Below are positions 44,841 to 48,310 of a stretch of DNA of 64,000 bases, piece by piece. Source of the DNA: Pseudobdellovibrionaceae bacterium (GTDB lineage: Bacteria > Bdellovibrionota > Bdellovibrionia > Bdellovibrionales > Bdellovibrionaceae). A program made the position numbers and the translations under genes. Location: assembly GCA_019637915.1 (NCBI GenBank), contig JAHBUV010000001.1, positions 1,086,565-1,150,564 on the forward strand, read 5' to 3'. Numbering within the stretch: the stretch's first letter is position 1; every line of letters starts with the position of its first letter. The notes beneath the pieces were generated by a model, which worked only from the letters and a program-made list of their open reading frames with translations, ran no database searches and was not told the origin of the DNA.

Positions 44841-45365
44841 ATGACATTGCTGATGAAGCAGATCTTCGCTTTTTTCCGGTTGCTGAATTCCGACACCGGC
44901 CACAATCAGCTCGCCGCCGGCCTCGCCTGCGGGATCATCCTGGGCTTTTCGCCCTTTCTGAGCCTGCAAACCTTCATCGTGATTTTCCTGCTCTTTTTCT
45001 TCCGCATCCAGATCGGCGCGGCTTTCCTGTCGGCCTTTTTCTTCAAATTCATCGCCTGGCTGGCGGACCCGATCGCGGACACCCTCGGCCGCCAGGTGCT
45101 GGAATCCCCGCCCATGCGCCCCTTGTTCGTGGAACTCTACAACATGCCCCTCGTCCCCATGACCCGTTTCAACAACAGCATCGTCATGGGCTCGATGATC
45201 TTCGGTTTCCTGCTGGCCGTTCCGGCTTTTTTCCTTTTCCGCTCCCTGATCCTGAAATACCGCGTGACGGTGGTGTCGCGCTTTGAGCAGACGCGATTCT
45301 GGAAGGCGTGGAAGGCCACGAAGATCTACGGCTGGTACTCCACCTACGAAAAACTCTACCTGTGA
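44841..45365 (+). CDS. TIGR03546/DUF2062-like membrane protein
   Basis: 174 residues with four hydrophobic segments. The N-terminal NQLAAGLACGIILGFSPFLSLQT followed by FFFRIQIGAAFLSAFFFKFI is the DUF2062/TIGR03546 pattern. RBS GGAGGAGCC precedes ATG 44841. It lies 11 bases before a TIGR03545-like gene, the usual partner of this family in other proteobacteria. The pair has no known biochemical role; the second protein's periplasmic region suggests a place in envelope transport or stability. Confidence 0.78.
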   Translation: MTLLMKQIFAFFRLLNSDTGHNQLAAGLACGIILGFSPFLSLQTFIVIFLLFFFRIQIGAAFLSAFFFKFIAWLADPIADTLGRQVLESPPMRPLFVELYNMPLVPMTRFNNSIVMGSMIFGFLLAVPAFFLFRSLILKYRVTVVSRFEQTRFWKAWKATKIYGWYSTYEKLYL

Positions 45366-45376
45366 GCGAGGCCGAC

Positions 45377-47332
45377 ATGACGAACCAAACCCCCGCCAAA
45401 AAAACCAAAGCCAAAGGCCCCGTCCGCTGGGAAGCCGTGATCCCCTTCACCATCGTCGTCCTGTTGACGGTGCTCTACGTGCATTTCTTTTTCGATGGCC
45501 ATTTGCGCCGCGCCCTGGAGTGGGGACTCGGCGCGGGCCTGGGGGCCCAAGTCGACGTGGCGGACCTGAAGACCAGCTTCACCAGCGCCCATCTCAGCGT
45601 CAAAGGCATCGATCTGACCGATTCGGAACAGCCTTCGCGCAACTCCCTGAGCGTCGGCGAGATCCGCTTCGGCATGTCCTGGGACGCCTTGTTGCGCGCC
45701 AAAATCCTGGTCAACGAGGCCGTTGTGGACAAGATCGAATTCGGCAAGCCCCGCGGCCGCCCGGGCTGGGTGAAGCCGCCGGAGCCGCCGAAAGCCGACG
45801 ATGGCTCCCCGTCCATGGCCGAAAAGCTCAAGCAGGAGGCCTTGGAAAAGGTCCAGCAGAAATACGACCAGAACGTCTTCGGCGACCTGGCCGCGATTCT
45901 CGGCGGCGGCAGCGCCCAGGTGCAGCTCGACAAAATCGATCAGTCCCTCAACTCCAAAAAAATGGCGCAAGCCCTGGAGGCCCAGGTCAAAGCCAAGCAG
46001 CAGGAATGGAACGAGCGCCTCAAGGCTCTGCCCAAAGCCTCCGAGTTCCAGGCCCTCGGTGACCGCATGAAGGCGGTGAAGACGAAGGATTTCAAATCGC
46101 CGCAGGAGTTGCAGCAGAGCCTGCAGCAGCTCGACGCGATCTTCAAGGAGGCCGACGCCAAAGTGAAGAGCCTCCAGCAGGCCGGCCAGGATCTCGACGG
46201 CGACGTCAAAAAGATCGACGCCGAAGTGAAGGCTTTGGAGGCGCAGATCAAGGCCGACGTGAAGAGCCTCGAGGCCCACTTCAAAATCCCGCAGATCGAC
46301 GCCAAAGCCCTGGTGATGGCCCTGTTCCGGAAGCAGATCGACAAGTACATGGGCAAGGTCCAGACCTACAAAGCCTTGGCCGACAAGTACGTGCCGCCGA
46401 ATCTGCTGAAAAAAGGCACGGACAAACCCGATCCCTCGATGCAGCCGCGCCCCCGCGCCCAAGGCGTGAGCTACGAATTCGGCCGTCCGAACTCGTATCC
46501 CTTGTTCTGGGTGAAGCGCACCGCCGTGAGTTCCCAGGCCGGGGCCTCGGCCTACGCCGGCAACATCCAGGGCGAGATCCTGGACATCACCTCCAATCAG
46601 GTTCTGATCAACAAGCCCACGATCGCCAACATCGCCGGCGACTTCCCCGGCATGGGCATCTCCGGTTTCTCGACGAAACTCACGGTGGACAACCGCCAGG
46701 AGGCGAGCCTCGTCGAACTGCTGGCGGCGGTGAAATCCTACGCCATCGACGGCCGCGACTTGATCTCGGGCGGCGACGTCAACATCGCCTTCGCCAAGGC
46801 CACGGGCGGCGTGGGCGTCAAAGCCACGTTGAAGGCCCTCAAAGAGCTCGATCTGAGTTTCGACAACCGCTTCCAGAACATCGACTATCAGATCGCCGCC
46901 AAAAGCGAGCTGGTGGACACCCTCCTGAAGAGCATCTTCAAGAGCATCCCCGTCGTCACGGTGGATGGCCGCTTCTCCGGCACTTTCCCACGCATCAACA
47001 CCAGTCTGAATTCCAACCTGGGGCCGGAGCTGCAAAAAGGCCTGGAGCGCGAAGTGAACGCCAAAATCGCCGAAGCCCGCCTGAAAATCGAAAAGTACGT
47101 GCAGGACGAAGTCGGCAAGTACAAGGCGCAGATCGACGCCGAAGTGGCGAAGATCAAGCAGCAGGTCAGCGGCGAGCTGAAAAAGGTCCAGGAGCAGGCC
47201 GACGCCCAGAAAAAACAAGCCGAAGCCCGCGCCGACCAGGCTAAAAAAGACGCCGAAAATTCCGCCAAAAAATCAGTCGAGAAAGAAGCCACCAAGGCCG
47301 CCGAAGAGCTCAAAAAACGCCTCGGCCTCTAA
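45377..47332 (+). CDS. TIGR03545-like membrane-anchored AsmA-related protein
   Basis: 651 residues from ATG 45377. A short cytosolic start is followed by one transmembrane helix (about 18-38). A GAQVDVADLKTSFTSAHLSVKGIDL strand set resembles the AsmA/lipid-groove start. A coiled-coil region with repeated Lys/Glu/Gln (about 120-340) follows, then RAQGVSYEFGRPNSYPLFWVKRTAVSSQ and more beta strands, and a C-terminal Ala/Lys/Glu coiled coil (about 570-651). With its partner TIGR03546-like protein it is probably an envelope-spanning or lipid-handling protein. Function is inferred only from fold likeness. Confidence 0.75.
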   Translation: MTNQTPAKKTKAKGPVRWEAVIPFTIVVLLTVLYVHFFFDGHLRRALEWGLGAGLGAQVDVADLKTSFTSAHLSVKGIDLTDSEQPSRNSLSVGEIRFGMSWDALLRAKILVNEAVVDKIEFGKPRGRPGWVKPPEPPKADDGSPSMAEKLKQEALEKVQQKYDQNVFGDLAAILGGGSAQVQLDKIDQSLNSKKMAQALEAQVKAKQQEWNERLKALPKASEFQALGDRMKAVKTKDFKSPQELQQSLQQLDAIFKEADAKVKSLQQAGQDLDGDVKKIDAEVKALEAQIKADVKSLEAHFKIPQIDAKALVMALFRKQIDKYMGKVQTYKALADKYVPPNLLKKGTDKPDPSMQPRPRAQGVSYEFGRPNSYPLFWVKRTAVSSQAGASAYAGNIQGEILDITSNQVLINKPTIANIAGDFPGMGISGFSTKLTVDNRQEASLVELLAAVKSYAIDGRDLISGGDVNIAFAKATGGVGVKATLKALKELDLSFDNRFQNIDYQIAAKSELVDTLLKSIFKSIPVVTVDGRFSGTFPRINTSLNSNLGPELQKGLEREVNAKIAEARLKIEKYVQDEVGKYKAQIDAEVAKIKQQVSGELKKVQEQADAQKKQAEARADQAKKDAENSAKKSVEKEATKAAEELKKRLGL

Positions 47333-47346
47333 ATCTGACCCCCCCC

Positions 47347-47368
47347 GGGCTGGCGACCCCGCCAGCCC
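47347..47368 (+). terminator. GC hairpin after the TIGR03545-like gene
   Basis: GGGCTGGCG and CGCCAGCCC form a perfect 9-bp stem with loop ACCC, 15 bases after the stop codon. No T run follows, so termination strength is uncertain. Confidence 0.5.
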
Positions 47369-47401
47369 CCAAGACCCTCAACCAGCCCCCAAGACCCTCA
47401 A
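47362..47401. repeat. 20-bp direct tandem repeat, two copies
   Basis: The unit ccagcccccaagaccctcaa occurs at 47362-47381 and again at 47382-47401 without a mismatch, followed by the first three bases of a third copy. It overlaps the right arm of the hairpin just before it. Confidence 0.9.
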
Positions 47402-47472: not shown

Positions 47473-47602
47473 GGCTGAGGGGGAGCCCGGTCCTCCGATC
47501 GGGACCTCCCGCAAGCCGGAGGCGTTGGCCGCCCAAGGCGGCCATGCGGGCCTGAGGGCAGGAGCCCGTGTCCCGATCGGAGGACCGGGCTCCCCCTCAG
47601 CC
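47473..47602. repeat. Perfect 33-bp inverted repeat enclosing a folded core
   Basis: Arms at 47473-47505 and 47570-47602 are exact reverse complements over 33 bases, enclosing 64 bases. The core folds too: CCCGCA (47508-47513) with TGCGGG (47545-47550); TGGCCGCC (47526-47533) with GGCGGCCA (47537-47544) around a 3-base loop; and GGGC/GCCC (47556-47559, 47564-47567) around AGGA. As RNA this is a 33-bp rod topped by a branched head; as DNA it could be a cruciform or a small transposable element. No real coding frame is present. Together with the hairpin and tandem repeat it accounts for most of the gene-free stretch 47333-47680. Confidence 0.92.
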
Positions 47603-47680
47603 GCTCGCTTCAAGCAAAAACGGCCTTGCCCAGACCCCGCACGAAAACCCCGCGCCACCAACGAGCGGAAAGGAAAACAG

Positions 47681-48271
47681 TTAGAGCGAGGGACCTGTTT
47701 GACCGGCGTTCGCGCTCTTCCGCAGGGACTGGAGATAGGAGACGGCGTCTTCGGAGGACCAGTTGATGGTGCCCGTCACTTTGCGCGCCAGGCGGCCTTG
47801 GGGATCGAAGACGAAGGATTCCGGCAGGCGGTAGACTTTGAAGAGCTTGGTCATGGCGAGCCCGTGACCGCCGTCGTGGACGATGTCGAAGCCCGGGCCT
47901 TTGAATTCCGGGAAGGACTTGAGGAAGACATCAATGTCCTCTTTGAGGGCGTCATTGGAAAGGGCCAGAACCCGCAGGTCATCACCCATGATCTTGGAGA
48001 GCCGCACGAAGGAGGGGACTTCCTCCACGCAGGGTCCGCACCAGGAGGCCCAGAAGTTCACGATGAGGATCTTGCCCTTGTAGTCTGGGGCGGTGACTTG
48101 GCGACCATCGATGGTCTGCAAGGTGAATTCCGGCAGGGCCTCGAGGGCACGGCCCTCCACGGGGCTCTGGGTGGCCTGCTGCTGCCTCCAAATCGTCAGG
48201 GCGGCTGCCGCCATCCCCCCGATCAGGACGATCGCTCCCAGGGCCAACAGGTGGCTTTTCCATGATGTCAT
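47681..48271 (-). CDS. TlpA-like membrane-anchored thioredoxin
   Basis: 196 residues from ATG 48271, six bases after GGGAGG. One N-terminal membrane helix (about 8-27) anchors a periplasmic thioredoxin domain with NFWASWCGPC (Cys78 and Cys81), PEFTLQTIDGRQV and FKVYRLPESFVFDPQGRL, the TlpA/ResA/CcmG pattern. It would reduce disulfides in the periplasm, for example in apocytochrome c or copper-site proteins. It stands alone between the inverted-repeat element and the terminator of the ribosomal operon. Confidence 0.9.
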   Translation of the reverse strand: MTSWKSHLLALGAIVLIGGMAAAALTIWRQQQATQSPVEGRALEALPEFTLQTIDGRQVTAPDYKGKILIVNFWASWCGPCVEEVPSFVRLSKIMGDDLRVLALSNDALKEDIDVFLKSFPEFKGPGFDIVHDGGHGLAMTKLFKVYRLPESFVFDPQGRLARKVTGTINWSSEDAVSYLQSLRKSANAGQTGPSL

Positions 48272-48310
48272 CGTCAACCTCCCACATCAAACAGCCTGCC
48301 ATGGGGGCCG

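Follow-up and report, generated by a model that had tools for sequence, protein, structure and literature searches.

Features of the locus

The window analysed here is a stretch of 64,000 nt from a Pseudobdellovibrionaceae bacterium (contig JAHBUV010000001.1, positions 1,086,565 to 1,150,564, forward strand). It contains a convergent gene pair, in which a forward-strand gene for a TIGR03545 family protein (45308..47332; NCBIfam TIGR03545, E 1.8e-133) faces a reverse-strand gene for a TlpA/ResA-like thioredoxin-fold protein (47681..48277; Pfam AhpC-TSA 6e-17, NCBIfam ResA 2.7e-20). Between the two genes lies a long hairpin, located by inverted-repeat search and described below on the forward strand. 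Its left arm, 33 nt long and G-rich (47473..47505), is the perfect complement of the right arm (47570..47602), all 33 positions pairing across a distance of 64 nt, as had been claimed in an earlier reading of these letters without database searches (the sequence-only reading). Given the GC content of the window, 64 kb should contain about 7e-13 perfect inverted repeats of 33 bp whose arms are no more than 200 nt apart, and a chance origin is therefore excluded.

The 64 nt between the arms form a branched head (47506..47569), here termed head A, and the further hairpins that had been ascribed to a self-folding core were recovered. A 6-bp enclosing stem pairs CCCGCA (47508-47513) with TGCGGG (47545-47550) and holds two hairpins, the weak one GC-CGGAG-GC (47515..47523) and GGCCGCC-CAA-GGCGGCC (47527..47543). 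The separate 4-bp hairpin GGGC-AGGA-GCCC (47556..47567) lies outside the enclosing stem, and the right arm is followed directly by a 3′ flanking box, GCTCGCTTCAAGC (47603..47615). Folded as RNA, the 130-base unit reached −115.5 kcal/mol, compared to −67.8 ± 4.1 in shuffled sequences (z = −11.7), and the opposite strand of the unit, folded as DNA, gave z = −11.5 relative to shuffles. The 9-bp GC hairpin (47347-47368) and the 20-bp tandem repeat (47362-47401) reported nearby are both real; they are located outside the 130-base unit and show no sign of belonging to it.

Rfam covariance models applied to the window at gathering scores detected only a tRNA. With E-value thresholds, copies of the hairpin matched nothing but eukaryotic RNA models, spuriously and at scores well short of gathering, and known families such as HEARO and the group II intron gave no covariance-model match. 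A retron was likewise rejected, as no RVT_1 match was found in the own genome.

Copies in the genomes of Bdellovibrionota

A search for further copies of the unit identified four in the own genome (at 251.9, 783.7, 1134.0 and 1321.8 kb), and more than 150 were examined in relatives. Three of these four copies had nearly identical heads and the same inner 14 bp of stem, while their outer stems differed; each of the four stems was 89-100% complementary. A covariance model built on the head and 14 bp of stem found copies in 40 of the 141 genomes of the order. A broader model detected the head in at least 51 of these 141 and in at least 7 of 228 other Bdellovibrionota genomes, both being lower bounds since no more than 11 candidates were scored per genome. 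Copy number in the head-bearing genomes of the order reached about 30 per genome.

In a scan of 85,000 species with the head pattern, the genuine hits, those with a model match as well, came from records named Bdellovibrionales or Pseudobdellovibrio. Another 21 loci were less certain, from other organisms, one viral contig and two Pseudobdellovibrio, and the model supported only the two Pseudobdellovibrio loci. Matches to the short head pattern in Streptomyces and other phyla were thus discarded, as was a viral origin, the scan of viral contigs having given a single match without a model hit. By pattern scan and model check combined, no convincing copy was present outside the Bdellovibrionota. 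Among the titles listed for Bdellovibrio with palindromes or structured RNAs, none describes such a hairpin family. As neither an Rfam model nor, in the papers searched, a literature description was met with, the hairpin is a member of an undescribed family of dispersed palindromic repeats. We name these non-coding elements, with a conserved branched head of about 64 nt on a variable long stem, capped palindromes.

Conservation and covariation of the head

The covariance analysis that the sequence-only reading had proposed showed that the head helices covary across genomes, which supports a real structure. In alignments of 52 sequences the structure described above paired 96.5% of cells, 558 cells were changed on both sides, and the covariation score reached 0.798, where shuffles gave 0.164 and slid controls no more than 0.14. 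Covariation was found in all head helices: the enclosing stem was paired in 99.7% of cells with both-sided changes at five of its six pairs, and compensatory changes occurred at all seven pairs of the GGCCGCC-CAA-GGCGGCC hairpin and at all four of GGGC-AGGA-GCCC. The small GC-CGGAG-GC hairpin, with a conserved GA in its loop, was near-invariant in all genomes. With most base pairs covarying across genomes, the evidence for the structure goes beyond thermodynamics. Conservation of sequence as such was seen in the GGA of the GGGC-AGGA-GCCC loop and in the segment AAGC..GA.GCG.

Such strong covariation, together with conserved loop residues, is what would be expected if the head-sense strand gave a structured non-coding RNA with a selected stem, its GGA loops binding a protein such as CsrA. 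The head-sense strand also tolerates G.U pairs above A.C pairs (22:5 in the head and inner stem; the G.T to A.C ratio in the arms was about 81:42 with G053 and G089 left out), and a CsrA gene was present in all 14 genomes tested. This modest excess of G.U and G.T hints that the head-sense strand may be under some selection, in the form of RNA or of single-stranded DNA. The CsrA gene does not discriminate, however, because it also occurs in genomes without the element, and the G.U pairs amount to only 22 of 1649 cells (about 1.3%) in the head and inner stem. No promoter-like site was detected in the region of the window hairpin, head orientation relative to co-directional genes was balanced (22 versus 29), and indels in both arms are hard to reach through compensatory point mutation. 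On this evidence we regard an RNA of this kind as an unlikely main explanation.

Evolution of the arms

In the arms of the stem, pairing is conserved but sequence is not. Strict arm length had a median of 42 bp and a 90th percentile of 71 bp (n = 157 copies), extending up to about 100 bp, and the left arm was G- and T-rich in 110 of the 131 copies that showed a bias. Pair-aware comparison of the own-genome arms found their outer parts partly alignable and G-rich, with mirrored differences, which weakened the notion that these arms are wholly unrelated.

Mirrored changes were counted in a pair-aware alignment, which leans towards mirrored indels, and gave the following: five paired substitutions and a 2-bp deletion in both arms, with no one-sided change, between G006 and G033 at a shared Bdellovibrio site with 87% identical flanks; nine mirrored and three one-sided changes at a second shared site; three mirrored and six one-sided between G070 and G068; and eight mirrored and no one-sided between the window copy and the 783-kb copy (L003). 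When an RNA stem is compensated step by step, G.U intermediates are expected to be common. Independent compensatory mutation is disfavoured here, because indels and transversions occur in both arms and G.U intermediates are scarce. To judge from the aligned arms, the mirrored changes at orthologous sites point to hairpin-templated correction by template switching, a process established in microbes and known from the literature to yield perfect stems and double substitutions (PMC8794818). While the DNA is replicated, a single strand would fold back as the hairpin, with one arm templating the correction of the other; the arms would then drift together and stay perfect at the DNA level.

The exact identity of the arms had been attributed to gene conversion, recent insertion or selection for pairing. 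The mirrored changes lend support to conversion, between the two arms of one hairpin. Recent insertion is not needed, because the arms are perfect at sites common to species whose flanks are 85-88% identical.

Genomic position and transcript 3′ ends

For 115 copies with two called neighbours, 52 lay between convergent, 51 between co-directional and 12 between divergent genes, where about 20, 61 and 34 were expected from a background sampled in two of the genomes (convergent excess p 6e-12; gene calls were crude throughout this comparison). Leaving out the copies within the G053/G089 insertion sequence described below, the counts were 41, 49 and 12.

A position between convergent genes, as in the window, would suit an ordinary bidirectional transcription terminator. 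Yet a T-run after the stem was rare (at least five T in the next 8 nt for 6 of 123 copies), no intrinsic terminator was called at the window hairpin itself, termination needs no conserved head, and at one site the hairpin had been added beside an existing hairpin; a terminator of this type is very improbable. The folded form would instead probably act where convergent transcripts share their 3′ end, blocking read-through or 3′ exonucleases, and would do so without being an intrinsic terminator. We infer this role at transcript 3′ ends by analogy, because of the position of the copies, as for REP elements (PMC3733652).

Occupancy and spread

One orthologous intergenic site was filled in four Bdellovibrio genomes (G006, G033, G036 and G063), and the element was absent, with both flanks aligning, in at least six (G072, G073, G074, G076, G030 and G061). 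Dispersed copies and an orthologous site in occupied and empty versions, both characteristic of a mobile repeat, were thus present. The empty versions usually hold other short hairpins, and the filled ones carry a short GC-rich hairpin (GGCGGC...GCCGCC) after the element. No target-site duplication was seen in the flanks, the empty sites being too diverged for comparison, and for solo copies neither a mobilising enzyme nor a sharp two-sided boundary was found. Five paralogous copies in G127 have their arms and left flank in common, the similarity ceasing near the right arm; one pair is an exception, being alike on both flanks. The suggestion that the unit is a non-coding RNA, a miniature transposable element or a chromosome-structuring repeat is borne out in part, by the extra copies and the covariation; duplications of the flanks, as a classical transposon would produce, were not seen.

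Some copies are associated with genes of mobile or repeated character. About ten hairpins in G055 and one in G106 are located directly downstream of genes for HNH endonucleases with a DUF222-like N-terminus, and of the three such genes in the own genome, two have a hairpin no more than 650 bp away, which accounts for two of the four copies (P about 2.5e-5 in simulations). In G053 and G089 the hairpin follows the stop codon of a gene for an IS1-like transposase (NCBIfam IS1 match below the cut-off, no Pfam transposase model above it) and precedes the right terminal repeat GGGTCAGTTT; it has been amplified together with the insertion sequence. This transposase and these terminal repeats accompany the G053/G089 copies and not the window copy. 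The insertion sequence itself (L059, L060, L041) is about 1.17 kb long, has the ends AAACTGACCC/GGGTCAGTTT and encodes a zinc-ribbon transposase.

These associations would fit a miniature transposable element for which the HNH endonuclease or the IS1-like transposase acts as mobiliser in trans and the hairpin serves as recognition structure. Against this, there are hairpin-rich genomes with few or no HNH genes nearby (G127 has one, not adjacent to a hairpin, and G053 none), most HNH loci in other genomes are hairpin-free, and the arms are not common to the copies, unlike terminal repeats. The HNH and IS1-like proteins are moreover unrelated, and two unrelated protein types suggest hitch-hiking. 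Since most HNH loci lack a hairpin and since G127 and G057 are rich in hairpins and poor in HNH genes, hitch-hiking is likelier than a strict partnership; the HNH protein was rejected as a general mobiliser, and mobilisation in trans by either enzyme appears quite unlikely.

Multi-copy HNH endonuclease genes with a weak DUF222-like N-terminus occurred in 78 of the 141 genomes of the order (for example L168:10250-11485 and L166:12536-13729 in the own genome, and many loci in G055, G138, G139 and G052), and they look like selfish repeated genes.

Relation to known repeats

REP elements are palindromes of 20-40 bp with GTAG or CGTC tags (PMC3733652). Like them, capped palindromes are dispersed and intergenic and for the most part follow coding regions, flanked by convergent or co-directional genes, but they differ in their much longer stem, copy-specific arms, conserved multi-hairpin head and lack of RAYT association; no GTAG or CGTC foot was present at the outer arm ends of the 130-bp unit. 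Y1_Tnp-family genes were found in 96 of the 141 genomes of the order, which would allow for a REP-like repeat moved by Y1 (RAYT) transposases. Five hairpin-bearing genomes (G001, G048, G060, G084 and G127) had no Y1_Tnp match, however, none of 20 RAYT loci carried a hairpin, and size and structure are unlike those of the 20-40-bp tagged REPs (PMC3733652). With the association test failed, RAYT mobilisation was rejected and is extremely improbable.

ERIC / RU-1, Ypal / RU-2 and other MITE-like repeats (PMC2229807) resemble the family in being intergenic units of about 130-170 bp with long stem-loops, non-autonomous and patchy between species. The arms of capped palindromes, in contrast, are not one common sequence, no target duplication was detected, and the host phylum is another. 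Terminal inverted repeats common to the copies, as in MITEs, were found only for the G053/G089 insertion sequence, the arms of the hairpin differing even within a genome. The hairpin works like a REP/ERIC-type intergenic repeat, and is not a member of the REP/RAYT system.

REP13E12-like elements are mobile elements with DUF222/HNH proteins. Some hairpin copies recall them in that multi-copy HNH genes matching DUF222 weakly lie next to them, but such a gene is near a minority of the hairpins only. Integron attC arrays have one orientation, an integrase and R/L boxes; clusters of the hairpin are of mixed orientation. RNA/DNA stems maintained by template switching (PMC8794818) share the multi-base mirrored changes and the near-perfect stems, but here the stems, of about 25-100 bp, belong to a multi-copy dispersed repeat.

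As to the moving agent and the function of the family, we infer that the unit may be a small repeat that spreads non-autonomously, either through duplication or carried along by HNH-endonuclease or insertion-sequence modules. Taken together, the hairpin is one of the dispersed non-coding capped palindromes of Bdellovibrionota, which probably spread as a non-autonomous repeat, have hairpin-templated arms and act at the 3′ ends of convergent transcripts. The unusual feature of the family is its co-evolving, copy-specific stem. The copies provide a natural replicated data set for the joint rewriting of long-palindrome arms by template switching, which is usually studied at single sites. With them, a phylum of predatory bacteria gains an undescribed structured-repeat family whose location could let it shape transcript ends, and such families are test cases for the spread of small non-coding repeats without an obvious transposase.

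Other heads and palindromes

The survey of palindromes covered about 800 kb, drawn from G127 and G000. The 400 kb from G127 contained two more heads, B and C, on long copy-specific hairpins. Head B, GAGTTCGGCTT(T)GGC..TTTGCGAACGCAAA..GCCAAACG, is carried on long near-perfect copy-specific stems and is also found in the own genome (L336:1475-1593 and L343:1456-1577), G001, G002, G084, G085 and G127. Head C, about 100 nt and likewise on long copy-specific stems (L147:14572-14824, L151:13039-13230, L345 and L346), was detected in G127 only among the 141 genomes.

In the own-genome copies of heads A and B, the right arm is followed immediately by CG[CA]TTCAAGC or a similar sequence; this 3′ box was seen in the window, L002, L004, L336 and L343 and in weaker form in L003, six copies in all. 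Copies with the unrelated heads A and B have this box and a G-rich variable stem in common. The heads could therefore be interchangeable modules on one chassis, in which the fold would be inherited while hairpin templating rewrites the stem, perhaps with HNH nucleases in attendance. Capped palindromes would then be mobile elements defined by structure, a tentative idea to which we give limited credence.

Two other kinds of repeat were encountered in the own genome. Two copies at L173:913-1039 and L173:2969-3095 share terminal arms of 32-38 nt, AAGGTACCGCCTACTTTCTGGTATC, like an ordinary miniature transposon. A short palindrome with a small loop, GTTCCCTTTTTGTCG(C/T)GC, is dispersed at L176:7720-7774, L176:3979-4031, L173:14566-14612 and L185:13689-13727.
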